Assembly: GCA_945787845.1 (NCBI GenBank)
Contig: CALZJH010000009.1
Coordinates: 99,208-163,207, forward strand
Source: an uncultured Woeseiaceae bacterium
GTDB lineage: Bacteria > Pseudomonadota > Gammaproteobacteria > Steroidobacterales > Woeseiaceae
Length of the DNA: 64,000 nucleotides
Direction: 5' to 3'
Part shown: positions 9,250 through 24,337 of the stretch, in pieces
How positions within the stretch are numbered: the first letter of the stretch is position 1
Layout: each line of letters opens with the position of its first letter
Translations under genes and position numbers: made by a program
The notes under the pieces: generated by a model
What the model was told of the DNA's origin: nothing
The model's database searches: none
The model's input: only the letters and a program-made list of their open reading frames with translations

Positions 9250-9326
9250 CGGGGCATGGCGCAGTCTGGTAGCGCATCTGCTTTGGGAGCAGAGGGTCGG
9301 GGGTTCGAATCCCTCTGCCCCGACCA
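9250..9326 (+). tRNA. tRNA-Pro (anticodon TGG)
   Basis: A 77-base gene with encoded CCA (9324-9326). The acceptor arms CGGGGCA and TGCCCCG pair fully. The anticodon arm CTGCT-TTGGGAG-CAG carries TGG, and the T arm has GGTTCGAATCC. It is first of a Pro-Arg-His-Lys array resembling the mixed tRNA clusters of other gammaproteobacteria. Confidence 0.96.
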
Positions 9327-9354
9327 GCCAGATTTCCGGTTAGACTTGAAATGT

Positions 9355-9431
9355 GCGCCCGTAGCTCAACCGGATAGAGCATCGGCCTTCTAAGCCGAGG
9401 GTTGCAGGTTCGAGTCCTGCCGGGCGCGCCA
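9355..9431 (+). tRNA. tRNA-Arg (anticodon TCT)
   Basis: A 77-base gene with encoded CCA. Acceptor GCGCCCG pairs with CGGGCGC. The anticodon arm TCGGC-CTTCTAA-GCCGA gives TCT, reading AGA and AGG. The T loop GGTTCGAGTCC is standard. Confidence 0.96.
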
Positions 9432-9456
9432 TTTGGCGTTACACTAGTTATACCGT

Positions 9457-9533
9457 GGTGGTTGTAGCTCAGTTGGTAGAGCCCCGGGTTGTGATCCCGG
9501 TCGTCGGGGGTTCGAGTCCCCTCAGCCACCCCA
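9457..9533 (+). tRNA. tRNA-His (anticodon GTG)
   Basis: A 77-base gene including the encoded G-1 (9457), which faces the discriminator C before CCA, the identity pair of tRNA-His. Acceptor GTGGTTG pairs with CAGCCAC. The anticodon arm CCGGG-TTGTGAT-CCCGG gives GTG. Confidence 0.96.
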
Positions 9534-9567
9534 CTTTTGAAGGACCGTGCCCAAAGGCACGACAGGT

Positions 9568-9643
9568 GGGCCTCTAGCTCAGTTGGTAGAGCATCGGACT
9601 CTTAATCCGCTGGTCCGGGGTTCGAGCCCCCGGGGGCCCACCA
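9568..9643 (+). tRNA. tRNA-Lys (anticodon CTT)
   Basis: A 76-base gene with encoded CCA. Acceptor GGGCCTC pairs with GGGGCCC, including one U-G pair. The anticodon loop CTCTTAA gives CTT; the first anticodon-stem pair is a T-C mismatch. Its 3' half resembles a degenerate fragment at 11351-11396, beyond the neighbouring diguanylate cyclase gene. Confidence 0.94.
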
Positions 9644-11350: not shown

Positions 11351-11396
11351 TCGACTCTTGAATCGCAGGTCCGGGGTTCGGCCCCTGCGGGCACCA
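11351..11396 (+). pseudogene. Degenerate 3' half of a tRNA, tRNA-Lys-like
   Basis: This stretch aligns with the 3' part of tRNA-Lys at 9594-9643. GACTCTT of the anticodon loop, the 13 bases GGTCCGGGGTTCG, and the ends GGGC and ACCACTC are shared, with small indels between. The 5' half is absent and the anticodon stem is broken, so no functional tRNA is expected. Such a fragment can be the duplicated attachment site left by an element that entered at the 3' end of a tRNA gene, or simply a decayed tandem copy. Confidence 0.55.
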
Positions 11397-11409: not shown

Positions 11410-12111
11410 TCAGCTGGGGCAGGGCTCGGCAGCCATGAGCTGTAGCTGGTCCCAGTCGAGAATCTCAATCTTGCCGCGCGGTGCATACAGGATACCGCGG
11501 CGTTTCATCTTGGCCATCTGCCGGCAGACGGTTTCCTCGCTCAGGCCGAGCAGGTTGGCGATCTCGCGGCGCGAAAACGGCAAGGTGAAGCGCTTGTTGC
11601 CATGTTCTGAGCTCGGAATAACGAGCTGTATAAACGAGGCGATCTTGGCCGCGGCACTTTTGTGGCCCATGACCTTCATCAGGGATCGGCTGTGGGCGAG
11701 CTGGGCGTTGAGTGAGCCGATCAGGCGCATGGCAACTTCGCCTTTCTTCTGGGCTGTGCGCAACAGGGCCCGATGCCGGATCTTGCAGGCGTAGGTCTCA
11801 GTTTCGGCGACGGCCGAGTACTCATAGATATCATCGTTAATGGACTGCAGCCCAACCAGCAGTTTGCCGGGAGTACTGAGGCCCACGATCTGCTCGCGTC
11901 CATCCTGCGAGTGATGGGCGATCTTGACGATTCCGCTGGAGAGCGAGAACAGGGAATCGCTGCGCTGCCCCTGGGCGAACAGGATTTCGCCTTTCTTGAA
12001 CCGCACCTGTTTGACGGCGTCGGTGATCAGGCACTTTAATTCCGAGTCCGATGTCAGGTAGTCACTGGCCTGCAGTTCATGAAACGGACAGACGAAGTTG
12101 TTGCAACTCAT
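11410..12111 (-). CDS. Crp/Fnr family transcriptional regulator
   Basis: From ATG 12111 the protein has 233 residues: a cyclic-nucleotide-like beta-roll (KKGEILFAQGQRSDSLFSL), a long dimer helix and a C-terminal winged helix (FSRREIANLLGLSEETVCRQ). The start is set by GGGAGAG upstream and by MSCNNFVCPFHE fitting the family. N-terminal Cys3, Cys8 and Cys27 and one Cys in TYACKI are present, but not in the exact FNR cluster spacing, so the sensed signal is unknown. The recognition helix follows FNR (E..xR), with Cys replacing the Ser of FNR. Three identical-type palindromes lie in front of this gene and the two cytochrome genes, suggesting it controls them and itself. Confidence 0.92.
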   Translation of the reverse strand: MSCNNFVCPFHELQASDYLTSDSELKCLITDAVKQVRFKKGEILFAQGQRSDSLFSLSSGIVKIAHHSQDGREQIVGLSTPGKLLVGLQSINDDIYEYSAVAETETYACKIRHRALLRTAQKKGEVAMRLIGSLNAQLAHSRSLMKVMGHKSAAAKIASFIQLVIPSSEHGNKRFTLPFSRREIANLLGLSEETVCRQMAKMKRRGILYAPRGKIEILDWDQLQLMAAEPCPS

Positions 12112-12211
12112 GCGTTGATACTCTCCCAGGCTCGCTCGTGATGAGACCAGAATTGACGAGCTTCGTCGATACGGATTTCCCATCCCGATTCTCGGTTTTT
12201 ACCTAGCCGAA

Positions 12212-12227
12212 ACTGACATTTGTCAGT
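12212..12227. promoter_or_regulatory. Palindromic operator 1 (ACTGAC-N4-GTCAGT)
   Basis: ACTGACATTTGTCAGT is a perfect inverted repeat (6-base arms, 4-base centre; 7-base arms if the A/T inside is counted). It has the half-site spacing of FNR boxes (TTGAT-N4-ATCAA). It lies 101 bases upstream of the Crp/Fnr gene on the other strand; no good -10 lies at class II distance on that side, so autoregulation by another geometry is more likely. Confidence 0.65.
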
Positions 12228-12304
12228 AAAGAAGCACGCACAGGCCGGCGTAAGGAGAAGCCGAAAATTCAGCGATTACCCATAAGTGTAATCCACCGGC
12301 TGAA

Positions 12305-12347
12305 ACTGACTTTTGTCAGTGTTTCGAACCTCCTAAGAATCTATCGT
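12305..12347 (+). promoter_or_regulatory. Operator 2 plus -10 of the decaheme cytochrome gene
   Basis: ACTGACTTTTGTCAGT (12305-12320) is followed after 21 bases by TATCGT (12342-12347). This is the geometry of a class II Crp/Fnr-activated promoter, with the site centred near -41.5. The element at 14939-14981 repeats both parts with the same gap. The rest of the 318-base space between the divergent genes (12112-12429) holds operator 1 and no other feature I can see. Confidence 0.7.
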
Positions 12348-12429
12348 CTGCTTGCTCTGGATGACTGTCCGTATTCGGCGACAGTTGTCATCAGGCCAAC
12401 AATGATTTATCCAATAGGGGAGTACAAAT

Positions 12430-14832
12430 ATGGACAGGTTCGGCAGATTTAAAGCTTCGGCCTGGTCTTTCCTCGTAGTGACGATATTCGCGTTTGCGCT
12501 GAGTGGCTGCGAGGGTAGCGATGGCTCAGACGGCGCAGCGGGCGTTGCAGGCCCACCGGGGCCGGCAGGACCTCCGGGGCCGGCAGGACCCCCGGGTGTA
12601 CCGGACAACGTAACGGCAGCAGTAGAAGCGGCTAAGGCCGAGTCCTGCGCTACGTGTCACGACGGTGTTGGCGGCGGTCACCAGGCGATCTACGCAGCCT
12701 ACGAAGATGCAAGTACGCTTGAGCTGATTTTTGACGCCTTCACCAGCGTCAATAACGGTGGTCTCTTTGACGTCACGCTTGACTTTACGATTCTGAAAGA
12801 CGGCATGCCGTTCACAGATTTCGACTCCCTGGATCAAAAGCGCTTCTTCGTCGATCGCTACGATGCGACAGACGGCAAGTTCTACGAAGCATTCCAGAGC
12901 CTGGGCAGCGTCGTGATGGGAGCTCCGGGCGAATACACCGCTACACGGACAGGCCTGACGTATGACCCGACAGTCAGCGGCCAGGTCTATGGCTACATCG
13001 CTCAGGGCGTATTGCTCGAGCACGAATCAGGCACTGGTGGTGAAATCCCGTCTGGCTCGCACGTTCATCTGTATGACGACGTCGCCAATGCCGGGCTGGC
13101 TTTCGGCGATGCCGATCCGGCAGATCCTGACTCCTACGTCTCGGCAGCGAATGCCGAAGGTTGTGAGAACTGTCACGGCGCCCCGTACCTGAAGCATGGC
13201 TACCGCGCCGTGCAAGTTCCTGGTTTGCCTGACTTTGCGGCGTGCAAGGTGTGCCATAACGACGACGGCAACGGCGGTCACACCGAGTGGCAATACATGG
13301 TCGACGAGCCCTTCAACTGGGCCACCGGCGTTGCGGCAACGGCAGATTATTCCTACTTCCGGAATATCATGAATGACGTGCACATGTCGCATGCCATGGA
13401 ATTCCCGTACCCGATGTCGATGTCGAACTGCAACACCTGCCATGAAGGCAAACTTGACCGGGTTCTCGATGATGAGGTCTTCACCGCAGAAACCTGCAAG
13501 AGCTGCCACGCGGTTCAGGGTATTGACGCATGGCCAGAGGATGCAGGCGCGACACTGGAAGGCCTGTATGCGCAGCCACTACGTCCGCCGCCCTTGCAGT
13601 TCCTGTGGACGAAAGCCGGCGTCGATTCATTCCATAACATCGATCTGAACTGCCAGGCCTGCCACGGCACGGCTGGCTTCAGCACTTTGACCGACTATCA
13701 CTCGGGCTACGACGATCACATCTATGACGACACCGGCACGAAGTTTGCTGATATCTACACGGTATCAGTAGACAGCGTCTCGATCGCCGGCGACCTGGTT
13801 ACGGTCGAGTTCAGCTCGAGCGATCCTGCCGTCGTTCCAGAAGTCCTTCTGTCCTTCTACGGCTGGGATACGCGCAACTTCATCGTCGGCGCGCACGAGC
13901 GTGACACCAATGTCACGGGGTGCGGTGGCCGTCGTCCTGGTTGTAAGATGGAATACGTGCCTGAAAGCTCGGGCGGCGGGCCGAACCCGCTGTTCACAGA
14001 GGATCCCCTCAGTGTGCCGGGTGCCTGGATAGTCACCGCCGACTTGTCCGCATGGCAGTTGACGAAGACGGACCTGATGCCGGATCTGATCGCGAACGGC
14101 GTCGTTTCGAAGATCGAAGTATCGATCACGCCTGAGCTGGAACTCGGTGGTGAAGATGTGGTTCTCGCGGCAGTCAGCGAGACCTTCGATATCGGCACCA
14201 ATGCCTTTGTCGCTGACTACTTCTCCGGAGTAAATGCAACGGTTGACATCAACAAGTGCAACGTCTGCCACGACTCGCTGGCCAGCACGTTCCATGACGG
14301 CAGCGGCCGTGGTGGTGATGGCATCCAGGTCTGTAAGGCATGTCATACGACGACATTCCCGGGCAGTCACCTCGAGATGGCGTCTCGTGCGATCGACAGC
14401 TACGTCCATGCGATCCACTCCTTCCAGCCGTTTGACCTGGATGACGTGGCCGCGGCAGACGATCCGGTCTTTGATGCACGGAATGAACAGCACATCAAAC
14501 ACACGTTCCCGAACTTCACGATCCGGAACTGTGAGGCGTGCCACAACCCGGGTACCTACAATGTGCCTGATCAGTCCAAGTCGATGCCTGGTGTCCTGTC
14601 GAAATCCTGGGATATCCCGGATCGCGCCATCGGGACGATTCCCGAGTACGTAACGGGTCCGGCATCACGGGCGTGCGGCGGCTGCCACCGGGCTGACCTG
14701 ATCAACCCGGACCTCGCTGGCGATCTCGCTAGCTTCAACGCGCACACTGAAGCCTTCGGTACGCTTGAAGCAAACGACGACGACGACATGATCCTGTTCG
14801 GCATCATCGACAAGATCATGGGTATGTTCTAA
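12430..14832 (+). CDS. Decaheme c-type cytochrome lipoprotein, OmcA/MtrC family
   Basis: An 800-residue lipoprotein (lipobox ALSGC, Cys27) with a short collagen-like Gly-Pro-Pro run (about 33-56) and exactly ten CxxCH haem sites: CATCH, CENCH, CKVCH, CNTCH, CKSCH, CQACH, CNVCH, CKACH, CEACH and CGGCH. Number and length match OmcA/MtrC cytochromes, which sit on the outer cell surface and pass electrons to minerals or other external acceptors. No MtrA or MtrB partner is present nearby. It is divergent from the Crp/Fnr gene, carries operator 2 upstream, and ends at a strong terminator, so it is a single transcription unit. Confidence 0.92.
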   Translation: MDRFGRFKASAWSFLVVTIFAFALSGCEGSDGSDGAAGVAGPPGPAGPPGPAGPPGVPDNVTAAVEAAKAESCATCHDGVGGGHQAIYAAYEDASTLELIFDAFTSVNNGGLFDVTLDFTILKDGMPFTDFDSLDQKRFFVDRYDATDGKFYEAFQSLGSVVMGAPGEYTATRTGLTYDPTVSGQVYGYIAQGVLLEHESGTGGEIPSGSHVHLYDDVANAGLAFGDADPADPDSYVSAANAEGCENCHGAPYLKHGYRAVQVPGLPDFAACKVCHNDDGNGGHTEWQYMVDEPFNWATGVAATADYSYFRNIMNDVHMSHAMEFPYPMSMSNCNTCHEGKLDRVLDDEVFTAETCKSCHAVQGIDAWPEDAGATLEGLYAQPLRPPPLQFLWTKAGVDSFHNIDLNCQACHGTAGFSTLTDYHSGYDDHIYDDTGTKFADIYTVSVDSVSIAGDLVTVEFSSSDPAVVPEVLLSFYGWDTRNFIVGAHERDTNVTGCGGRRPGCKMEYVPESSGGGPNPLFTEDPLSVPGAWIVTADLSAWQLTKTDLMPDLIANGVVSKIEVSITPELELGGEDVVLAAVSETFDIGTNAFVADYFSGVNATVDINKCNVCHDSLASTFHDGSGRGGDGIQVCKACHTTTFPGSHLEMASRAIDSYVHAIHSFQPFDLDDVAAADDPVFDARNEQHIKHTFPNFTIRNCEACHNPGTYNVPDQSKSMPGVLSKSWDIPDRAIGTIPEYVTGPASRACGGCHRADLINPDLAGDLASFNAHTEAFGTLEANDDDDMILFGIIDKIMGMF

Positions 14833-14860
14833 ACAACAATACAAACAGCAGGAAAAGACT

Positions 14861-14891
14861 GGCCGGGAGAGCAATCTCCCGGCCTTTTTTT
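14861..14891 (+). terminator. Intrinsic terminator after the decaheme gene
   Basis: A perfect 10-bp stem (GGCCGGGAGA with TCTCCCGGCC), a GCAA loop and a run of seven T. It separates the decaheme gene from the octaheme gene, which therefore needs its own promoter. Confidence 0.93.
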
Positions 14892-14938
14892 CGTCTTGCG
14901 GTAACTCCTTATGAGCCTGCGGTTTTCACGCGTTTGGA

Positions 14939-14981
14939 ACTGATAATTGTCAGTGTTGCTTCTGCAACGATTTCCTATCTT
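14939..14981 (+). promoter_or_regulatory. Operator 3 plus -10 of the octaheme cytochrome gene
   Basis: ACTGATAATTGTCAGT (14939-14954; one arm has T for C) is followed after 21 bases by TATCTT (14976-14981). The arrangement copies that before the decaheme gene, so both cytochrome genes appear to be activated by the same Crp/Fnr-type protein. The -10 lies 73 bases before ATG 15055. Confidence 0.7.
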
Positions 14982-15054: not shown

Positions 15055-17361
15055 ATGTCCACCAGACTCAGACACTTTCTGCTGTTAGCAGCGAGTGCTT
15101 TTCTTTTTGCCGGCTGCGAAGGCAGCGACGGGGCACCGGGCGCGCCAGGCGCATCGGGTTCTGACGGCCAGGACGCGGTTGACACCGGCACCATCAGCGT
15201 GACTGTTGATTTCAGCGGTGGACCGGTTGCCGGCGCAACGGTCACGACAGACCCGGCAACCGTCAGCGTCGATACGGACGCCGCCGGTAACGCAATGCTT
15301 AACGTGCCCATTGGCGTCTATGACGTCACGGCCACCATTTCAGGCATTAGCGTGACCGAGTCGTTGGTAAACGTTGCCGCAGGGCTGACCACTGACGTGT
15401 CGTTTACCGTCAGCGGTATTCCGGGCACCGTCTCCGGTACCGTACTGGCGCCTGACGGCACAGCCGTTGAGGGCGCAGTCGTTTCGGCACCGGGCAGCGC
15501 AGATGCAGTGACTGACGCAACAGGCGCGTTCGCAATTGACTCCGTTGTCAGCGAATTCCTGTCGATTACGCCGCCGGCTGGCTCCAACCTGCTTCCAGGC
15601 GATACGCGTCATTCAGTACGCCCGGGCGAAGTCGTTTCCGTAACGCTCTCGGGCGGCCCGGAAAGCGACGCGGTCTTCATGGGCAGCGATGTTTGCCTGA
15701 TCTGCCACAGCGGCGGTCTCGCCGATGCCTGGATGGCCTCTGGTCACTATCGTGTCGTCGAACGATCGCTCGTCGAAATGGACCCATTCAGCTTCCCGGC
15801 TGATCCGGGTGCAGGCAACTGCAGCGGCTGGTTCGATACCGGTGTCGTCGCCAACATCCCGGGCGAACCTTCTGTCAAGGGGCAGGAGACTCACGCCACT
15901 TACATCCGCACCTGCAACGACGATCCTGATCTGCGTTACGAAGTGCTGTTTGATGAAACGGGTAACGGCCCGAGCGACTTGAGTGATCTTGTGGTTCCGG
16001 TTTATGCGACGTATGGCGGACCTGGCACGCAGGCCGGTGAAATCGCCGCCCTGCAGGCACGCGGTGAAGCTAACGACATCCACGGCGCGTGGAAACAACG
16101 TTACATGTTCAGCATTGCCGATCTGGGTAACTGCTCGACGACGAACCCGGAGGGCACGTTTGACAAGAACGCAAAACCGGATTTCATCAACTGGGATACG
16201 TCCCAGACCTGCGAAGACATGCTGACGCTTCCAATCCAATTCAACCAGCGGACCAAAGAGTGGGTGTCCTACCATCCTTGGGAGTGGTACGAGCAGAGAC
16301 GCGCTTACTCGAAGAAGTGCTCAGGTTGCCATGAGGCCGGTCTACAGATCACGGCGGTTGGCGGATTGGTCACAGAGTACTCGGCTGTTGACTATCGCAT
16401 CGGTTGTGAGAAATGCCACGGACCCGGCAGCAGCCACGTTGGCAACGGCGCGGACCCGAACTTCATCATGAACCCGAACCACATGACGGCCCAGGCGGCC
16501 ACCGAGATTTGCGGTGCCTGCCACAACCGCGGTTCGGATCCGATTGATGGCGCGTTTGGATTCCCGTGGCGCAGCGACGTTGCGGACTTTGACGGCAACT
16601 TCATTGCCGGTCTGCATACCCTGACGTGGGATGCGGTCGATGCGCCGGAAGGCTACTTCCTGGAGAAACCGGGTAACTGGCCGACGGGCTTCCCGTCGAA
16701 GCATCGCCAGCAATACAACAGCTTCTTCGGTTCAGCGCATATGGACAACCCGTTCGAGAAGGTCACGTGCTACGACTGCCACTCGCCGCACAGCGGCAAG
16801 GGCGGCCCGTTCCACTTCGCCAATACGGACTTCGTCACGGGCGACGAATTCGACTTTGGCGGTAACAGCCAGGCGTTGATGTCCAATGCCCGGTGCCTGA
16901 GTTGCCACGCGACTCACGGACCGTTCGCTACGCTGACGCTTGAAGACGTCGCTATCAACCATACGGCGAATGGCGGCACGGCCGACAAGAATGGCGTTCC
17001 GTTGGCACCGACGGCTACTGAGCAGGATTCGGCGTTCACGTTGATCGAAAACGCCGTGAGGGCTCACAGCGGCGAGGCCGCGGGCATGCCGTTCGCACCG
17101 TACCAGCCCACCGAGTCTCACATTCCTGTGAACTACGAGCTTGGTGACGGTCCGGTGGGACGCTGCACGTCCTGTCATATGACCAAGACGGCCAAGAGCG
17201 GTACCTGGTTCGTCGATGCTGACGGCAAGACGATCGCAGGCGACAACACGGATCACAGCTTCCAGGTTGTCGCGCTTGAGGCTGGAACAGACCAGCCGAA
17301 CGCCTGTGGCAGCTGCCACGCATCGTTCCGCACGTCGTCAATTCCGCCGGGCGGTGACTAG
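15055..17361 (+). CDS. Octaheme c-type cytochrome lipoprotein with Ig-like N-terminal repeats
   Basis: A 768-residue lipoprotein (lipobox LFAGC, Cys21). ATG 15055 is chosen over an upstream in-frame start because AGGAGG lies just before it and the signal peptide follows. The mature N-terminus CEGSDG matches the decaheme protein. Two beta-rich repeats (about 44-120 and 120-195; VSGTVLAPDGTAVEGAVVSA) look like carboxypeptidase-regulatory/SdrB-type domains. Eight haem sites follow: CLICH, CSGCH, CEKCH, CGACH, CYDCH, CLSCH, CTSCH and CGSCH. FMGSDVCLICH resembles the start of cytochrome c554-type domains. It probably acts with the decaheme protein in electron transfer at the cell surface or in the periplasm; no substrate can be named. 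Confidence 0.88.
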   Translation: MSTRLRHFLLLAASAFLFAGCEGSDGAPGAPGASGSDGQDAVDTGTISVTVDFSGGPVAGATVTTDPATVSVDTDAAGNAMLNVPIGVYDVTATISGISVTESLVNVAAGLTTDVSFTVSGIPGTVSGTVLAPDGTAVEGAVVSAPGSADAVTDATGAFAIDSVVSEFLSITPPAGSNLLPGDTRHSVRPGEVVSVTLSGGPESDAVFMGSDVCLICHSGGLADAWMASGHYRVVERSLVEMDPFSFPADPGAGNCSGWFDTGVVANIPGEPSVKGQETHATYIRTCNDDPDLRYEVLFDETGNGPSDLSDLVVPVYATYGGPGTQAGEIAALQARGEANDIHGAWKQRYMFSIADLGNCSTTNPEGTFDKNAKPDFINWDTSQTCEDMLTLPIQFNQRTKEWVSYHPWEWYEQRRAYSKKCSGCHEAGLQITAVGGLVTEYSAVDYRIGCEKCHGPGSSHVGNGADPNFIMNPNHMTAQAATEICGACHNRGSDPIDGAFGFPWRSDVADFDGNFIAGLHTLTWDAVDAPEGYFLEKPGNWPTGFPSKHRQQYNSFFGSAHMDNPFEKVTCYDCHSPHSGKGGPFHFANTDFVTGDEFDFGGNSQALMSNARCLSCHATHGPFATLTLEDVAINHTANGGTADKNGVPLAPTATEQDSAFTLIENAVRAHSGEAAGMPFAPYQPTESHIPVNYELGDGPVGRCTSCHMTKTAKSGTWFVDADGKTIAGDNTDHSFQVVALEAGTDQPNACGSCHASFRTSSIPPGGD

Positions 17362-17516: not shown

Positions 17517-18209
17517 ATGTCGCAGGATGAAGAAGACATCATATTGGCCGATCTGCCCGACGACGAACTCGTCGAGCAGATGTTCGACGACCTGTACGAC
17601 GGGCTCGCCGATGAAATCGCGGAGGGCACGCAGATTCTGCTCGACCGCGGCTGGGAAGCGAAGAAGGTGCTCGATGAGGCCCTCGTCGGCGGTATGAACA
17701 TCGTCGGTATCGATTTTCGTGACGGCATCCTGTTCGTGCCTGAAGTCCTGCTCGCGGCCAATGCGATGAAGGCCGGCATGGCAATCCTGCAACCGATCCT
17801 GACGGCGAGCGGCGCCGAGCCTGTGGGCAAAATGGTAATCGGCACGGTCAAGGGCGATATCCACGATATCGGCAAGAACCTCGTCGGCATGATGATGGAA
17901 GGCGCCGGTTTCGAGGTCGTGGACCTCGGCATCAACACTGACGCCGAGACCTATATCGCGGCGCTCAGGGAACACCGGCCGAACATCCTCGGCATGTCCG
18001 CGCTGCTCACGACAACGATGCCGTACATGAAGGTCGTTATCGACACGATGAAAGAGGAAGGCCTGCGCGATGATTTCATCGTCCTGGTCGGAGGTGCGCC
18101 TCTGAACGAAGAATTCGGCGAGGCGGTCGGTGCCGACGCCTATTGCCGCGATGCGGCGACGGCGGTCGAAGTGGCCAAACAGCTCGTCCTGGAACAGCGC
18201 GCCTCCTGA
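17517..18209 (+). CDS. Corrinoid (B12-binding) methyl-carrier protein, MttC/MtbC-like
   Basis: A 230-residue corrinoid protein: an N-terminal helical cap (about 18-105) and a Rossmann-type B12 domain with GDIHDIGKN near residues 118-126, where His is the lower cobalt ligand, and a VLVGGAPLNEEF segment. It would accept a methyl group from a substrate methyltransferase (MttB paralogues at 22.8-25.9 kb) and hand it to the methyl-THF transferase at 19.1 kb. It opens the operon. Confidence 0.93.
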   Translation: MSQDEEDIILADLPDDELVEQMFDDLYDGLADEIAEGTQILLDRGWEAKKVLDEALVGGMNIVGIDFRDGILFVPEVLLAANAMKAGMAILQPILTASGAEPVGKMVIGTVKGDIHDIGKNLVGMMMEGAGFEVVDLGINTDAETYIAALREHRPNILGMSALLTTTMPYMKVVIDTMKEEGLRDDFIVLVGGAPLNEEFGEAVGADAYCRDAATAVEVAKQLVLEQRAS

Positions 18210-18210
18210 C

Positions 18211-18816
18211 GTGGCAGAGCCAACGGTCCTGATCATTGCGTGCGGCGCACTGGCGAAAGAGATCGTTGAACTGCAGCGCCTGAACGGCTGGTCGCCTATC
18301 AGGATTCAGTGCCTGCCTGCCGAGTTGCATAACCGGCCGGAGAGAATACCGGCCGCTGTCGAGGCGGCAATTGAAAAATACCGGGACGTGTACGACCAGC
18401 TGTTTGTTGCCTACGCTGACTGCGGCACGGGCGGAGCCCTGGACAAGCTGCTGCGGCGGTATGGCATCGAGCGCCTGCCCGGCGCTCACTGTTACGAATT
18501 TTACGCAGGCTCAAAGGCCTTCGCTGCGCTTGCCGAGCATGAGCCGGCCTCGTTCTACCTGACCGACTTCCTGGCGAGGCATTTCGACCGGCTGGTGAAG
18601 AGAGGGCTGGGCCTCGACCGACATCCCGAGCTGATGCCCGAGTACTTCGGCAATTACAAACGGCTGGTGTACCTGTCGCAGGCCGAATCAGCACAGCTCG
18701 AAACAGCGGCCCGCGGACACGCGGACTACCTGGGCCTGGCCTTTGAACACTGGCATACGGGACTCGGCCCCGTTGGACAGGAAATTGGAGAACACCTCGT
18801 TCAATGGCGAAACTGA
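18211..18816 (+). CDS. DUF1638 family protein
   Basis: A 201-residue protein from GTG 18211, one base after the corrinoid gene stop; a longer frame from 18130 overlaps that gene and is unlikely. Motifs are VLIIACGALAKEI, QCLPAELHNRPERIP and YADCGTGG, with conserved Cys and His (PGAHCYEFY) that could bind metal. DUF1638 proteins recur in corrinoid methyltransferase clusters of proteobacteria; their activity is not known to me. Overlap with the next gene (13 bases) indicates coupled translation. Confidence 0.8.
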   Translation: MAEPTVLIIACGALAKEIVELQRLNGWSPIRIQCLPAELHNRPERIPAAVEAAIEKYRDVYDQLFVAYADCGTGGALDKLLRRYGIERLPGAHCYEFYAGSKAFAALAEHEPASFYLTDFLARHFDRLVKRGLGLDRHPELMPEYFGNYKRLVYLSQAESAQLETAARGHADYLGLAFEHWHTGLGPVGQEIGEHLVQWRN

Positions 18817-19118
18817 TCTGCATCTACTGGCGCGATATTCCGGCCCAAGTCGTGGGCCGGGCCGGGCGCAAATCGACGTTCAAGAAAGAGCTCGAGCCGC
18901 GCTTCGCGACCGCGATCGATCGCGCTGCGATGCGCGCCGGCCGCGGCTCGAGTGACGCCTACCTCGAGGACTGGTGCCGCGTGACAGAAGTTGTCGACGG
19001 CGATCTCGAGGCGGCTGTCAACGAGCGCGTGGCAGCGCTCGAAAACGAATTCAATCCCGAGTATCTCGAAAAAGTCGTCAAAGCCGGCGGCCTGGTTCAA
19101 AAAGGAAACACGGAATGA
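18804..19118 (+). CDS. Small conserved protein of corrinoid clusters (virulence-factor-like domain)
   Basis: A 104-residue soluble protein beginning MAKLICIYWRDIPAQVVG, followed by FKKELEPRFATAIDRAA. I recognise it only loosely as the small family often labelled virulence factor, found beside methyl-THF:corrinoid methyltransferases in proteobacteria; that label says little about function. It overlaps both neighbours (13 and 4 bases), so it is made together with the methyl-transfer enzymes and may be a subunit or assembly factor. Confidence 0.65.
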   Translation: MAKLICIYWRDIPAQVVGRAGRKSTFKKELEPRFATAIDRAAMRAGRGSSDAYLEDWCRVTEVVDGDLEAAVNERVAALENEFNPEYLEKVVKAGGLVQKGNTE

Positions 19119-20017
19119 CCGACACCCTCATCAGTTCAAAATCGAAGGACGTCGTGATTGGATTCGAGCGCCCATTCGCGGTTATTGGCGAGCGCATAAA
19201 TCCCACTGGTCGAAAGCTGCTGGCCGAGGAAATGAAGAACGGCGACTACAGCCGCGTCGAGGCCGATGCGGTCGCCCAGGTCGCGGCGGGCGCGCACATC
19301 CTCGACGTCAATGCGGGCATACCGCTGGCCGACGAACCGGCGATTCTCGCCGAGTGTATTCGGCTGGTGCAGTCGGTCACCGACGTGCCGCTTTGCATAG
19401 ACTCTTCGATCGTCGCCGCCCTCGAGTCCGGGCTCGAGGCCTACGAAGGCAAGGCATTGCTGAACTCGGTGACGGGCGAGGAAGAGCGGCTCGAAGCAGT
19501 GCTGCCGCTGGTGAAGAAATACGGGTGTGCCGTGATCGCCATCTCCAATGACGACGACGGCATATCAGAAGACATCAACGTGCGCTTTAACGTGGCGAAG
19601 AAGATCGTCGAGCGCGCGCAGGACCACGGCATCCCGGCCAGCGATGTCATTGTCGATCCGCTGGTCATGCCGATCGGTGCCATCAACTCCGCGGGTGTGC
19701 AGGTCATGGAACTGGTTCAGCGGCTGCGTAACGAGCTCAAGGTGAATACCACCTGCGGTGCTTCAAACCTGAGTTTTGGCCTGCCCAATCGCAACGGCCT
19801 GAATACTGCGTTTATCAGCATGGCGATTGCGAGCGGCATGACGTCCGCAATCACCAACCCGCTGCACGCCGAGATCATGCAGTCCATTCGCGGGGCGAAC
19901 GTCGTCATGGGCAATGACCCCGAATGCGCGGACTGGATTGCCCATAATCGCGAGCCGTCTGCCGATGGCGACCAGCGTCGCGGCCGTCGCGGCAGCCGGC
20001 GTCGGCGCCGCGGCTGA
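19115..20017 (+). CDS. Methyltetrahydrofolate:corrinoid methyltransferase
   Basis: A 300-residue pterin-binding TIM-barrel protein starting at ATG 19115, which overlaps the previous stop; the longer frame from 18974 is an overlap artefact. Motifs are VIGERINPTGRK, HILDVNAGIPLADE, PLCIDSS and DPLVMPIG. It would move the methyl group from the corrinoid protein to tetrahydrofolate (or back). The C-terminus ends in an Arg/Gly-rich tail (QRRGRRGSRRRRRG) not expected for the family; similar tails occur on three other products of this operon. Confidence 0.9.
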   Translation: MTDTLISSKSKDVVIGFERPFAVIGERINPTGRKLLAEEMKNGDYSRVEADAVAQVAAGAHILDVNAGIPLADEPAILAECIRLVQSVTDVPLCIDSSIVAALESGLEAYEGKALLNSVTGEEERLEAVLPLVKKYGCAVIAISNDDDGISEDINVRFNVAKKIVERAQDHGIPASDVIVDPLVMPIGAINSAGVQVMELVQRLRNELKVNTTCGASNLSFGLPNRNGLNTAFISMAIASGMTSAITNPLHAEIMQSIRGANVVMGNDPECADWIAHNREPSADGDQRRGRRGSRRRRRG

Positions 20018-20028
20018 CAGATCCCTGA

Positions 20029-21984
20029 ATGACCAGCGCTCCCGACAAGGACCCGATGATCGTCTTCATGCCGTCCGGCAAGCGCGGTCAGTTTCCGCGC
20101 GGGACCGCGATACTGGATGCGGCGCGCAGCCTCGGCGTCGATATCGATTCGGTTTGTGGCGGCAGGGCGATTTGCGGGCGCTGCCAGGTTGAAGTCGCCG
20201 AGGGCGAGTTTGCCAAGCACGGAATCAATTCGACCACGGACAATGTTTCGGGTCCGGGTGACGCCGAGGGCCGTTATCGTGAGCGACGGGGGCTGGGTGA
20301 GACCCGGCGCCTGGGCTGCCAGGCGAAGCTCGAGTCGGACGTGGTGATTGACGTGCCGGCCAGCTCGCAGGTGCACCACCAGGTCGTTCGAAAACCGCAC
20401 GAAGACCATGACATTGCGATCAATCCGGTGGTCCATGCGCACTTTGTCGAAGTGCCGCAACCCACGCTCGATGAGGCACTCGGTGACCTCGAGCGCTTGT
20501 ACGGCGCATTGGCAAGCGAATGGGACCTGCACGATCTTGGCTGTGAGCCGGCGGTCGTGCGCGCACTGCAGTCGGCGCTGGCGGACGGCAAACGGCAGGT
20601 GACGGTTGCGGTTCGCAACGGCAGCCGCGTCATCGCCGTCTGGCCTGGCCTCAAGGAAAAGCTCTACGGCATCGCGTTTGACGTCGGCTCGACAACGGTC
20701 GCGGCCCACCTTTGCGACCTGGCAAGCGGTGAAGTCATTGCGAGCGCGGGCAAAATGAATCCGCAGATACGCTACGGCGAGGACCTCATGAGCCGTGTGT
20801 CCTACATCATGATGAACCCGGGCGGAGAAGCGAAATTGATCGCGGCGGTGCGCAGCGCCATGAATGAGCTCGTCGAGGAAGTCGCGGCGGACGCGGAGGT
20901 CGACGTAACGGACGTGGTGGAGGTCACGGTCGTTGGTAATCCCATCATGCAGCACCTCGTGCTGGGTATCAGCCCGGTCGAGCTGGGCACGGCGCCCTTT
21001 GCGCTGGCGACCGACTCGAGCGTCGATGTGCGCGCGTCGGACATTGGGCTTTCGATCAATGCCGGCGGGCACGTGTACGCGTTGCCGTGTATTGCCGGCC
21101 ACGTGGGCGCGGACGCGGCCGGTGTGTTGCTGGCCGAGGCGCCGCAGCGTCACGACGGCGTGTCGCTCATTGTCGACGTCGGCACGAATGCGGAAATTCT
21201 CCTCGGCGACGCCGGGCGGCTGTTGGCCGCATCCAGCCCCACGGGGCCTGCCTTCGAAGGCGCGCAGATCAGCGGCGGACAACGGGCTGCGCCGGGCGCC
21301 ATTGAACGCGTGCGCATCGACAAGGAATCGCACGAGCCGCGCTTCAAGGTGATCGGGTGTGACCTGTGGTCCGACGATCCAGGGTTTGCGAACGAGGTAA
21401 AACAGGTCACGGGTATTTGTGGCTCGGGCATTATTGAAGTCGTTGCCGAGTTGTTTCTCGCCGGCATCCTCGACGCCGACGGGAAGATCAACGCATCCCC
21501 ATCGCCTCGGGTCGTGGAAGACGGCCGCACGCTGGCGTACGTCCTGCATGACGGTGACCCGACTATTCACATCACGCAAAACGACGTCCGGGCGATTCAG
21601 CTGGCCAAAGCGGCACTGCATGCCGGCGCCAGGTTGCTCATGGAGCATCATGGCGTGGACAGGGTTGATCGCATTCGCCTGGCCGGCGCGTTCGGCGCCC
21701 ATATCGACGTCAGGTACGCCATGGTGCTGGGCCTGATTCCCGAGTGCGACCTCGACCAGGTGTCGTCAGCGGGCAATGCTGCCGGGACCGGCGCGCGTAT
21801 CGCTTTGCTCGACAAGGCGTCGCGGGCACGGATCGAACAACAGGTTCGGGACGTCGTGAAGATCGAAACCGCGGTCGAACCGCGCTTCCAGGAACACTTT
21901 GTTGCCGCTATGGCGATTCCGGGTGACGACACGGCAAGACCCTCGCGTGCGAAGCGTCGCCGCGGGCGGCGAGGGCGCTCATGA
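20029..21984 (+). CDS. Reductive activator of corrinoid proteins (2Fe-2S, ASKHA domain)
   Basis: A 651-residue protein of the RACo/DUF4445 type. The N-terminal ferredoxin part has CGGRAICGRC and a later Cys (RLGCQAK), giving a C-x5-C-x2-C...C 2Fe-2S site. The C-terminal actin-like ATPase part has FDVGSTTVAAHL near residue 220 and VDVGTNAEILLG. It rescues inactive Co(II) corrinoid by ATP-driven reduction to Co(I). The end carries a basic tail (AKRRRGRRGRS). It overlaps the next gene by four bases. Confidence 0.92.
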   Translation: MTSAPDKDPMIVFMPSGKRGQFPRGTAILDAARSLGVDIDSVCGGRAICGRCQVEVAEGEFAKHGINSTTDNVSGPGDAEGRYRERRGLGETRRLGCQAKLESDVVIDVPASSQVHHQVVRKPHEDHDIAINPVVHAHFVEVPQPTLDEALGDLERLYGALASEWDLHDLGCEPAVVRALQSALADGKRQVTVAVRNGSRVIAVWPGLKEKLYGIAFDVGSTTVAAHLCDLASGEVIASAGKMNPQIRYGEDLMSRVSYIMMNPGGEAKLIAAVRSAMNELVEEVAADAEVDVTDVVEVTVVGNPIMQHLVLGISPVELGTAPFALATDSSVDVRASDIGLSINAGGHVYALPCIAGHVGADAAGVLLAEAPQRHDGVSLIVDVGTNAEILLGDAGRLLAASSPTGPAFEGAQISGGQRAAPGAIERVRIDKESHEPRFKVIGCDLWSDDPGFANEVKQVTGICGSGIIEVVAELFLAGILDADGKINASPSPRVVEDGRTLAYVLHDGDPTIHITQNDVRAIQLAKAALHAGARLLMEHHGVDRVDRIRLAGAFGAHIDVRYAMVLGLIPECDLDQVSSAGNAAGTGARIALLDKASRARIEQQVRDVVKIETAVEPRFQEHFVAAMAIPGDDTARPSRAKRRRGRRGRS

Positions 21985-22829
21985 ACACGCTGCGTTCCGC
22001 GGAAATCCAGGTGCTGGCACATCACGTGCGCGAGGCCTACATGGAGATCTTTCCGACCGAGACCATCGAGTCGCGCCTTGGAGCGCTTGAGCCGAACTCC
22101 TACGTCGCCGTGACCTGCTCACCGAGCAGGGGCGTCGACGTGACGCTCGATATGTCGGAACGGCTCGCAAGCCGCGGCTTCAAGGTGGTGCCCCACGTGG
22201 CCGCCAGGATGGTCCGGGACAAACGGCATCTTCACGAGATTATCGCCAGGCTGAATGACCTGCCGATCATCAGTATTTTCGTTCCGGGCGGCGACGCCGA
22301 TGCGCCGCTCGGCGATTACTCCACGGCGCTTGCGCTGCTACGAGACATCGCGGAGATCGATCACAACTTCACCGAGATTGGCGTGGCCGCACATCCCGAG
22401 GGGCACCCGCACGTCGCTGCCGACGAGCTCGTCCGTGCCCTGCTCAGGAAACAGGAGGTCGCAAATTATCTCGTGACACAGATGTGCTTCGACGCCGATA
22501 TCATCGCCACGTGGTTGCGCTCGATCCGGGAGCAGGGGGTCACTCTGCCGGCGTGGCTGGGCTTACCCGGTGTCGCCGATCGCGGATCGCTGCTAAAGAC
22601 CTCCCTGCGCATCGGCGTCGGCGACTCGTTGCGCTACCTGAAGCGCAATCCCCGGGCGGCGGCACGACTCATGTTGTCGAATGAGTATCGCCCCGACGAC
22701 CTGTTGTTCGGCCTGGCGCCGTACCTTGCGGACCCGGCGTATGATATCCACGGGCACCATGTCTATTGCTTCAACCAGGTTGAAAAAACCGAGCAATGGC
22801 GGCACGAGTTCCTGGAGGGATTGAGCTGA
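21981..22829 (+). CDS. Methylenetetrahydrofolate reductase-like protein
   Basis: A 282-residue TIM-barrel protein similar in size to MetF (296 in E. coli) but divergent. Recognisable features are VAVTCSPSRGVDVTLDMSE, GVAAHPEGHP and NYLVTQMCFDAD, typical of the flavin-dependent reductase. In this operon it would oxidise methyl-THF to methylene-THF, carrying the methyl group towards C1 oxidation or biosynthesis. Overlaps of four bases upstream and one base (TGATG) downstream tie it to its neighbours. Confidence 0.85.
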   Translation: MNTLRSAEIQVLAHHVREAYMEIFPTETIESRLGALEPNSYVAVTCSPSRGVDVTLDMSERLASRGFKVVPHVAARMVRDKRHLHEIIARLNDLPIISIFVPGGDADAPLGDYSTALALLRDIAEIDHNFTEIGVAAHPEGHPHVAADELVRALLRKQEVANYLVTQMCFDADIIATWLRSIREQGVTLPAWLGLPGVADRGSLLKTSLRIGVGDSLRYLKRNPRAAARLMLSNEYRPDDLLFGLAPYLADPAYDIHGHHVYCFNQVEKTEQWRHEFLEGLS

Positions 22830-24337
22830 TGGCGCGACGCAGCCGACGCAAACGGCGGACTGCCAATGCGACAGGGCAGCTCAAGTGGCGCGATATTGTG
22901 AACCGCTACGGCCCGATCAACGTCCTCAACGAGGAGCAGGTGCAGACCATCATCGACGGTGCGCTGGCAATACTGCAGTCGAAGGGCATGCGTTTTCTCG
23001 AGCCCGGCAGCCGCAAGCGCCTGGCCGCGGCCGGGGCCGATATCGATGAAGAGACCCTGATGGTGCGTTTCGACTCGTCGCTGGTCATGGAGCAGGTAGC
23101 ACTGGCGCCGTCGTCCTTCAAGCTACGTGCGCGCAACCCTGACCGGCGTCTCCAGTTTGGTGGCAACGCCATTAATTTTGCCTCAGTAGGCGGACCCGCT
23201 TTCGTCAGTGATCTGGACAAGGGCCGACGGCCGGGCACCTACGAGGAAATGTGCGACTACCTGCGCCTCGTGCAGAGCCTGAATATCATTCACCAGGAAG
23301 GTGGCGGCCCGTTCGAGGCTATGGACCTGCCCGCAGAGACGCGGCACCTCGACCTGTATCTCGCGCAGTATCGCCTGACGGACAAGAACTGCCAGTCGTA
23401 TGCGCTGGGCGGCGTGCGTGCGCGCGACTCAGTAGAGATGGCCTGTATTGCAATGGGGCTGGATCGCGCCGCCTTGCTCGACACGCCGGCATTGCTCGCC
23501 ATTATCAACACGAACTCGCCGCTGCAGCTCGACGTTCCGATGACCGAAGCGGTCGATGAGCTCGCGGCGGCCGGGCAGGTGTGCTGCATCACGCCGTTTA
23601 CGCTGGCCGGCTCGATGAGTCCCGTAACGCTGGCCGGAACGCTGGTGCAGCAAACGGCGGAGGTATTGGCGGTCGTGACTTACGCGCAAATTGTGCGGCC
23701 GTGCGCCCGCGTCATGTACGGCAGTTTTGCCTCCAATGTCGACATGCGCAGCGGCTCACCGGCGCTAGGGACGCCGGAATACACCAAGGCCGCACTGGCC
23801 AGCGGCCAGCTCGCGAGAAAACTCGGGCTGCCGTATCGGTCCAGCAACACGACGATGTCGAACTGCAACGATGCGCAGGCCGCTTACGAGAGCCAGATGT
23901 CCTTGTGGGGCTCGATCATGGGCGGTGCCCATCTCGTCAATCACGCGGCGGGCTGGCTGGAAGGCGGACTGACAGCGTCTTTCGAAAAACTCATCATTGA
24001 TGCCGAGATGCTCCAGATGATGGCCGAGTACCTGCGCCCGATCGAACTCTCGGACGACGAACTTGCGCTCGACGCCATCGCCGAGGTGGGTCCCGGCGGC
24101 CACCATTTCGGTACGGCTCACACGCTGCAGCGTTATGAGACCGCCTTTTATGAGCCGCTGATCTCCAGCCGCGAGAATTTCGAAAGCTGGCAGGAAGCCG
24201 GCAGCACGGATGCGGCGACCCGTGCGAACGCGACCTGGAAGCGGATGCTCAGGGACTACGAACAACCGCCGCTTGATGCGGCTATTGATGAAGCGCTCGT
24301 CGATTACGTCGAGCGACGCAAACAGGAATTAAGATAA
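22829..24337 (+). CDS. MttB-family (trimethylamine methyltransferase-like) protein 1
   Basis: A 502-residue member of the MttB superfamily, which demethylates quaternary or tertiary amines and passes the methyl to a corrinoid protein. The frame has no internal TAG, so this is the non-pyrrolysine type, some members of which use glycine betaine, proline betaine or carnitine. ATG 22829 is preferred over 22796 because TGATG couples it to the previous stop and GGAGGG lies upstream. The N-terminus is very basic ([10 protein letters not shown]), unlike typical MttB. Motifs include [15 protein letters not shown] and [19 protein letters not shown]. Substrate unknown. Confidence 0.88.

Follow-up and report, generated by a model that had tools for sequence, protein, structure and literature searches.

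A Crp/Fnr-family activator with an operator of its own very probably switches on multihaem lipoprotein cytochrome genes in class II fashion, acts on its own promoter and controls a small, dedicated regulon, as judged from DNA sequence and its comparison among relatives. We analysed a stretch of 64,000 nucleotides from an uncultured Woeseiaceae bacterium (here called the window), whose relevant features are collected in Table 1. Across over two dozen species of this marine sediment family, a private operator is conserved through which a relative of the oxygen sensor FNR appears to turn on genes for surface cytochromes. Comparison shows that the site, its spacing, the predicted promoter element and the linkage are conserved; that the regulator itself binds the operator, and activates, we infer. 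In the proposed mechanism, a dimer of the regulator would bind GCYGAA-ACTGAC-N4-GTCAGT at -41.5 and, once bound, would recruit RNA polymerase to multihaem lipoprotein cytochrome genes, whose promoters have weak TANNNT -10 elements. At the promoter of its own gene the regulator would act from a site at about -61 that adjoins a second conserved element, and a low-oxygen or redox signal may reach it via four conserved cysteines.

Table 1. Features of the regulator and cytochrome region, in window coordinates.
Feature	Position	Strand	Remarks
Crp/Fnr-family regulator, 233 aa	11410..12111	-	Pfam cNMP_binding and HTH_Crp_2; longer ORF opens at 12183
TATCGA, candidate -10 of regulator gene	12166..12171	-	would place the centre of operator 1 at about -60.5
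Second conserved element beside operator 1, TTCGGCTAGGTAAAAACCGA	12192..12211	-	its TTCGGC is the operator flank; pattern in 23 of 26 regulator promoters
Operator 1, regulator-facing	12206..12227 (core 12212-12227)	+	exact match; GCCGAA flank
Operator 2, predicted class II site of cytochrome gene 1	12305..12320	+	exact match
TATCGT, predicted -10 of cytochrome gene 1	12342..12347	+	predicted start about 12354
Cytochrome 1, OmcA/MtrC-like, 800 aa, 10 CxxCH	12430..14832	+	lipobox-like LSGC, collagen-like stretch; Pfam Mtrc-MtrF_II-IV
Operator 3, predicted class II site of cytochrome gene 2	14939..14954	+	one mismatch
TATCTT, predicted -10 of cytochrome gene 2	14976..14981	+	predicted start about 14988
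Cytochrome 2, 768 aa, 8 CxxCH	15055..17361	+	lipobox-like FAGC; Pfam CarboxypepD_reg and Cytochrome_C7 above cut-off

An initial annotation of the window had reported two perfect copies of ACTGAC-N4-GTCAGT and a third with one base changed. All three were found at the positions it gave, as ACTGACATTTGTCAGT (operator 1), ACTGACTTTTGTCAGT (operator 2) and ACTGATAATTGTCAGT (operator 3). The number of matches in the window was unremarkable: four with up to two mismatches, compared with a mean of 2.1 in shuffled sequence, and 20 of 100 shuffles held at least four. This count, falling within the shuffle range, is what speaks for a chance origin of the palindromes, the intergenic region being compact. 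We regard that reading as extremely improbable, since exact copies occur nowhere else in the genome and conservation over 26 loci and 37 promoters refutes it. The genome-wide motif scan that the annotation had proposed (3.68 Mb) returned the exact 16-mer only twice, at sites 93 bp apart, both in the space that separates the regulator from cytochrome gene 1. Sites with one mismatch numbered 12, operator 3 included, as compared with 8 for the reversed control pattern. All 12 are located inside frames that run stop-free for at least 100 codons, and on neither side of the other 11 was a TANNNT present at +21. The scan points to a regulon in this genome that would consist of the regulator and its two neighbouring cytochrome genes, as had been guessed from the window alone.

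The operator is probably longer than the 16-mer. On the regulator side, where the flank is kept in 23 loci, the majority reads TACSTAGCYGAA-ACTGAC. The AA adjoining ACTGAC also stands, distal to the -10, at nearly all sites that face a cytochrome gene, where GCYG before this AA was the majority form, each base occurring in 59-95% of the 37 sites. Because the AA and the GCYG flank are common to both types of site, the full operator probably reads GCYGAA-ACTGAC-N4-GTCAGT.

Promoter geometry was assessed at 37 sites that, in our judgement, face a multihaem gene; the selection leaves out sites facing the regulator, sites with a GC-rich spacer and the one at G024:C1. In the window, the predicted -10 elements of both cytochrome genes begin after exactly 21 bp from the palindrome, as the annotation had claimed, and when the -10 is placed at -12 to -7 the site is centred at -41.5. 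The operator arms were near-invariant across the 37 sites, and TANNNT occurred exactly at +21 in 35 of them, the two exceptions reading GAAGAT and CATGCT. At the remaining 59 offsets TANNNT was found at 0 or 1 site each, a single match being seen at three offsets only. Much of the 21-bp spacer is little conserved, so the fixed +21 does not simply reflect identical sequence, even though the loci are related by descent. The -10 elements are poor matches to TATAAT, and no -35 is evident. On predicted starts, 35 of the 37 selected sites therefore have the features of class II Crp/Fnr-dependent promoters, namely a centre near -41.5 and a fixed distance to the -10. The proposal of class II geometry thus stands for the cytochrome genes and fails for the regulator's own promoter, which has no -10 at +21.

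The same position, which overlaps the -35 region, would also suit a repressor that blocks RNA polymerase at -41.5 until a signal releases it, and FNR can repress as well (excerpt of PMC4505428). A repressor needs no fixed distance, whereas a class II activator depends on just such an arrangement, a single fixed 21-bp spacing to weak -10s that have no evident -35; repression is thus an unlikely reading of these promoters, and we retain activation.

Upstream of the regulator gene, the arrangement differs. We compared 26 regulator loci, leaving out truncated regulators (L120, L122, G070, G062) and duplicate copies of a contig, recognised by its length and the position on it. The annotation had expected the palindrome to recur in orthologous promoters, and this was the case both at the cytochrome-facing sites described above and here: a site with at most one mismatch was present in 26 of 26 loci in the 450 bp preceding the regulator gene (265 bp in one locus). 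When only regulator-proximal sites (at most 130 bp from the start) were counted, 20 loci had one with at most one mismatch, four had one with two mismatches and two had none. The weaker or absent proximal site in these six loci slightly lowers our confidence in the overall scheme. The regulator-facing site is followed by TTCRGCTASGTA-NNN-ACCGA and then by a TATCGA-like element. The TAGGTA-NNN-ACCGA portion is almost confined to regulator promoters: genus-wide, 15 of 17 matches to a strict pattern adjoin the operator at such a promoter (the regulator of G062 is cut by the contig end). This second element may possibly be the site of a second regulator. At 40-41 bp past the site, 22 of 23 regulator promoters carry TATCGA (18 promoters) or a near form of it (four). 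With TATCGA as the -10, the regulator's site would lie near -60.5 or -61.5, which is a class I position. We do not claim helical phasing of the paired sites, whose centres lie 85-207 bp apart in 21 loci. Phasing near 10.2-10.5 bp was reached in 0 of 20000 draws over all loci and gave a p value of 0.02 over 13 distinct spacings, which rose to 0.32 once similar spacings were merged.

Orthologues of the regulator were detected in 27 of 73 congeneric genomes and in 15 of 60 relatives (window's genome included), all 15 of which were congeneric. Among relatives of the regulator in 28 named loci, 23 were near full-length, with 55-88% identity, and the other five were partial or distant; the 23 were labelled Woeseiaceae (18), Gammaproteobacteria (four) or Chromatiales (one). 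A search of plasmids for the regulator gave no match. In the set of 60 genomes, the 15 with the regulator contained 34 exact operators, spread over 14 of them, and nine were found in the 45 others (9 of 45 with one). The exact reversed control gave nine matches in the same genomes, three in regulator-bearing genomes and six in others, and none in the window's genome.

The composite pattern, an operator followed after 21 bp by TANNNT, with one mismatch allowed, was present in all 27 regulator-bearing congeners and in 8 of the 46 others (Fisher p 3e-13, a value that ignores shared descent, the relatives being of one genus and the loci not independent). Across the 73 genomes there were 60 composite matches, some of them regulator-facing or due to chance, compared with four for the reversed control. 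This co-occurrence upholds the suggestion of a local electron-transfer regulon with its own DNA specificity. A divergent frame for a haem protein was found at 24 of 26 regulator loci, with 4-10 CxxCH motifs in 20 and one or two in four shorter frames. It was not seen at the regulator in G033 or G024, of which the latter has just 265 bp of contig before the regulator; in both, multihaem genes with a site occur elsewhere in the genome. Unlinked sites before multihaem genes (5-10 CxxCH) were found at G014:C59, G024:C15, G028:C33, G033:C51 and G036:C192.

These distributions also bear on whether the palindrome might be the site of a different protein, for example another Crp/Fnr paralogue, with the linkage reflecting one conserved locus. 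The window's genome does hold three other PF13545 matches above cut-off, and some genomes have sites without a detected regulator. We nevertheless consider this quite unlikely: the presence of the site tracks that of the regulator, unlinked sites lie on other contigs of regulator-bearing genomes, the site stands upstream of the regulator at every locus compared, and PETLSR, the helix read for one of the three paralogues in this genome, is of another type. The linked regulator is thus our preferred candidate for the protein that would bind the operator.

Exact composites without a detected regulator were found in four genomes that are 73-89% complete (G018, G028, G066, G083). The first three face multihaem genes, and that of G083 runs to the contig end. 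In G018, the contig ends 277 bp past the cytochrome site, where a divergent regulator would lie. The one-mismatch composites of G008, G015, G080 and G082, in which the regulator was likewise not detected, had no haem gene beside them. At G024:C1 an exact site and -10 precede a gene without haem motifs. Exact matches with a GC-rich spacer in G016, G034 and G037 had no multihaem gene beside them. Such GC-rich-spacer matches also occur in G014:C39, G002:C344, G027:C3, G027:C12 and G012, and further exact matches in G025:C112, G046 and G050. Among 369 members of the class, an exact composite was found in four: the window's genome, one congener and two others (2 of 367). Outside the genus, the composite of G393, whose spacer is GC-rich, is not accompanied by a haem protein. 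In G307, also outside the genus, what looks like a genuine site precedes a cytochrome 1-like multihaem gene on a contig of 3 kb that is possibly misbinned; the best match to the regulator in this genome, at 104 bits, is not close.

The regulator probably starts at the ATG at 12111 rather than at 12183, as suggested by comparison of orthologues and by a Shine-Dalgarno-like GGGAGAG read by eye. It belongs to the Crp/Fnr superfamily, with PF00027 (62 bits) and PF13545 (57.7 bits) both above cut-off. All scores against the NCBIfam models were far under their cut-offs: 94 of 300 bits for FnrL, 78 of 300 for FixK, 74.4 of 228 for Fnr (NF008365) and 39.7 of 266 for CRP (NF008732). The best PDB matches to its predicted structure were Aliivibrio fischeri FNR, with CRP-type proteins close behind. 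Mean pLDDT of the model was 83, with residues 1-4 and 14-25 below 50, and the N terminus is modelled too poorly to show whether the four cysteines meet.

These cysteines (C3, C8, C27 and C109) are invariant in the regulator and its 22 orthologues, as is the recognition helix E192-E193-T-V-C196-R197 in the same 23 aligned proteins. C109 aligns with the fourth cysteine of FNR-type proteins, and the N-terminal set is C3-x4-C8-x18-C27 instead of C-x2-C-x5-C. FNR has an oxygen-labile [4Fe-4S] cluster. The four invariant cysteines suggest that the regulator may be an Fe-S sensor akin to FNR in which the cysteine spacing is altered, and an Fe-S cluster in the regulator is plausible. FNR and ANR of Gammaproteobacteria share with the regulator the fold, the half-site spacing, the E..R pair of the recognition helix and the fourth cysteine. 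The arms had been described as departing from the FNR box, TTGAT-N4-ATCAA, with the half-site spacing kept, and this was confirmed: they read ACTGAC and GTCAGT, so that CTGAC stands in place of TTGAT. By its NF008365 score, its N-terminal cysteine set and its operator, the regulator thus falls outside FNR. The recognition helix of CRP is R-E-T-V-G-R, and by its helix E-E-T-V-C-R and its NF008732 score the regulator falls outside CRP as well.

Aligned with two FNR-type proteins, the regulator keeps E193 and R197 and has C196 for Ser and E192 for Val. The Cys for Ser exchange is shared by PP_3287, an FNR paralogue of Pseudomonas putida for which the authors expected an ordinary FNR box (PMC4505428, in the part available), so the Cys alone need not explain CTGAC. 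For this reason E192 is the more interesting change, and it may contact the outer C of the operator arm. A broader reading is that the regulator and its orthologues form a separate Crp/Fnr subfamily, so far found only in Woeseiaceae-type genomes, which would sense oxygen or redox state by an Fe-S cluster with rearranged cysteines (C3-x4-C8-x18-C27...C109), have its DNA specificity shifted by the recognition-helix glutamate, and serve as a dedicated switch turning on surface multihaem cytochromes. We offer this wider proposal tentatively, as somewhat less than an even prospect. In titles and abstract openings of the open-licence literature, we found no description of the regulator or the operator. 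The pair provides a test case for a change of DNA specificity in Crp/Fnr proteins.

Both cytochromes have a lipoprotein-type signal (LSGC and FAGC) followed by a collagen-like stretch, as read by eye, and on the strength of these signals both are probably located on the outer surface. Cytochrome 1 scored above cut-off for PF22113 (MtrC/MtrF domain) and below it for TIGR03507 (OmcA/MtrC decahaem; 120 of 209 bits). Cytochrome 2 contains a carboxypeptidase-regulatory-like domain. Relatives of cytochrome 2 with 72-80% identity lie beside the same operator in G020, G024, G025 and G026, and twice in G029. The operator could serve as a simple sequence marker for cytochromes that may be co-switched, even when scattered in the genome, and the small promoter set is offered for a reporter of surface electron transfer.

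In Shewanella oneidensis, omcA and mtrC are activated by the global regulator cAMP-CRP at class I sites (-61.5 and -60.5), from promoters with a weak -10, TAGCCT, and no clear -35 (PMC4417206, as given in the portion available). On the same portion, the two systems have in common that promoters of outer-membrane cytochromes, with a weak -10 and lacking a clear -35, are served by an activator of the Crp/Fnr family, all of this being predicted in the present case. Unlike the global cAMP-dependent regulator of Shewanella with its class I sites, the Woeseiaceae regulator is linked and seemingly dedicated, with a site at -41.5 and another operator, and would thus represent a different solution.

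Sediment-derived Woeseiaceae genomes carry mtrCAB, which has been taken as potential for iron reduction (PMC12175321, partial text). An mtrC-mtrA-mtrB-like set also occurs in the window's genome, on a different contig, and no operator with up to two mismatches was found in the 19 kb read there. As this set is without the operator, the regulator here seems to supply additional surface cytochromes to a conduit under other control. In other genomes, an MtrB-family gene lies within 9 kb on the regulator's contig (G013, G014, G025, G063 and G069), with MtrA-like 10-haem frames beside it in G013 and G014. Genus-wide, MtrB was present in 45 of 73 genomes, comprising 22 of the 27 with the regulator and 23 of the 46 without it.

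In the promoter of the regulator gene, the stretch from the operator to the candidate -10 included a further conserved element with the sequence TAGGTA-NNN-ACCGA. When this pattern was searched for genus-wide, 15 of the 17 matches were located at regulator promoters and the element was scarce elsewhere; it is possibly the site of a second regulator.

Genome G029 contained two loci (L063 and L076), both laid out regulator-cytochrome-cytochrome, whose regulators shared 70 and 71% identity with that of the window. At G024:C1:133424 an exact operator was accompanied by TAAGTT at +21, the -10 position seen at the cytochrome genes. The gene that follows had no haem motif and, judged by eye, resembled a secreted glycoside hydrolase. 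This gene is perhaps an additional target. In G307, a member of another family, a multihaem gene similar to cytochrome 1 was preceded by the operator and a -10 element (G307:C71; L209 / L182). The site lies on a 3-kb contig, on which no close regulator was found, and may reflect transfer or misbinning.

A distant relative of the regulator (L123), with 32% identity, displayed FNR-like N-terminal cysteines and likewise the E-E-T-V-C-R helix. Neither a frame with at least two CxxCH motifs nor a palindrome match was seen nearby.

With up to two mismatches allowed, no operator was detected in 19 kb of sequence covering the mtrC-mtrA-mtrB-like set of the window's own genome, nor ahead of the cluster downstream of the cytochrome genes, whose members by eye resembled corrinoid-protein methyltransferase genes.

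Coordinates of the features described (in the window unless a locus is named)
Feature	Position	Strand	Remark
TAGGTA-NNN-ACCGA element	12192-12211	-	same place in relatives
Exact operator, G024:C1:133424	L081 5025		
Distant regulator relative	L123 6821-7591		
mtrC-mtrA-mtrB-like set	L207 7158-12557 (G000:C3)		separate from regulator locus, same genome
Downstream cluster	17517-24337		
tRNA-like 3' end with CCA	near 11360-11396		no ARAGORN call
tRNA genes Pro, Arg, His, Lys	9250-9643		four, consecutive
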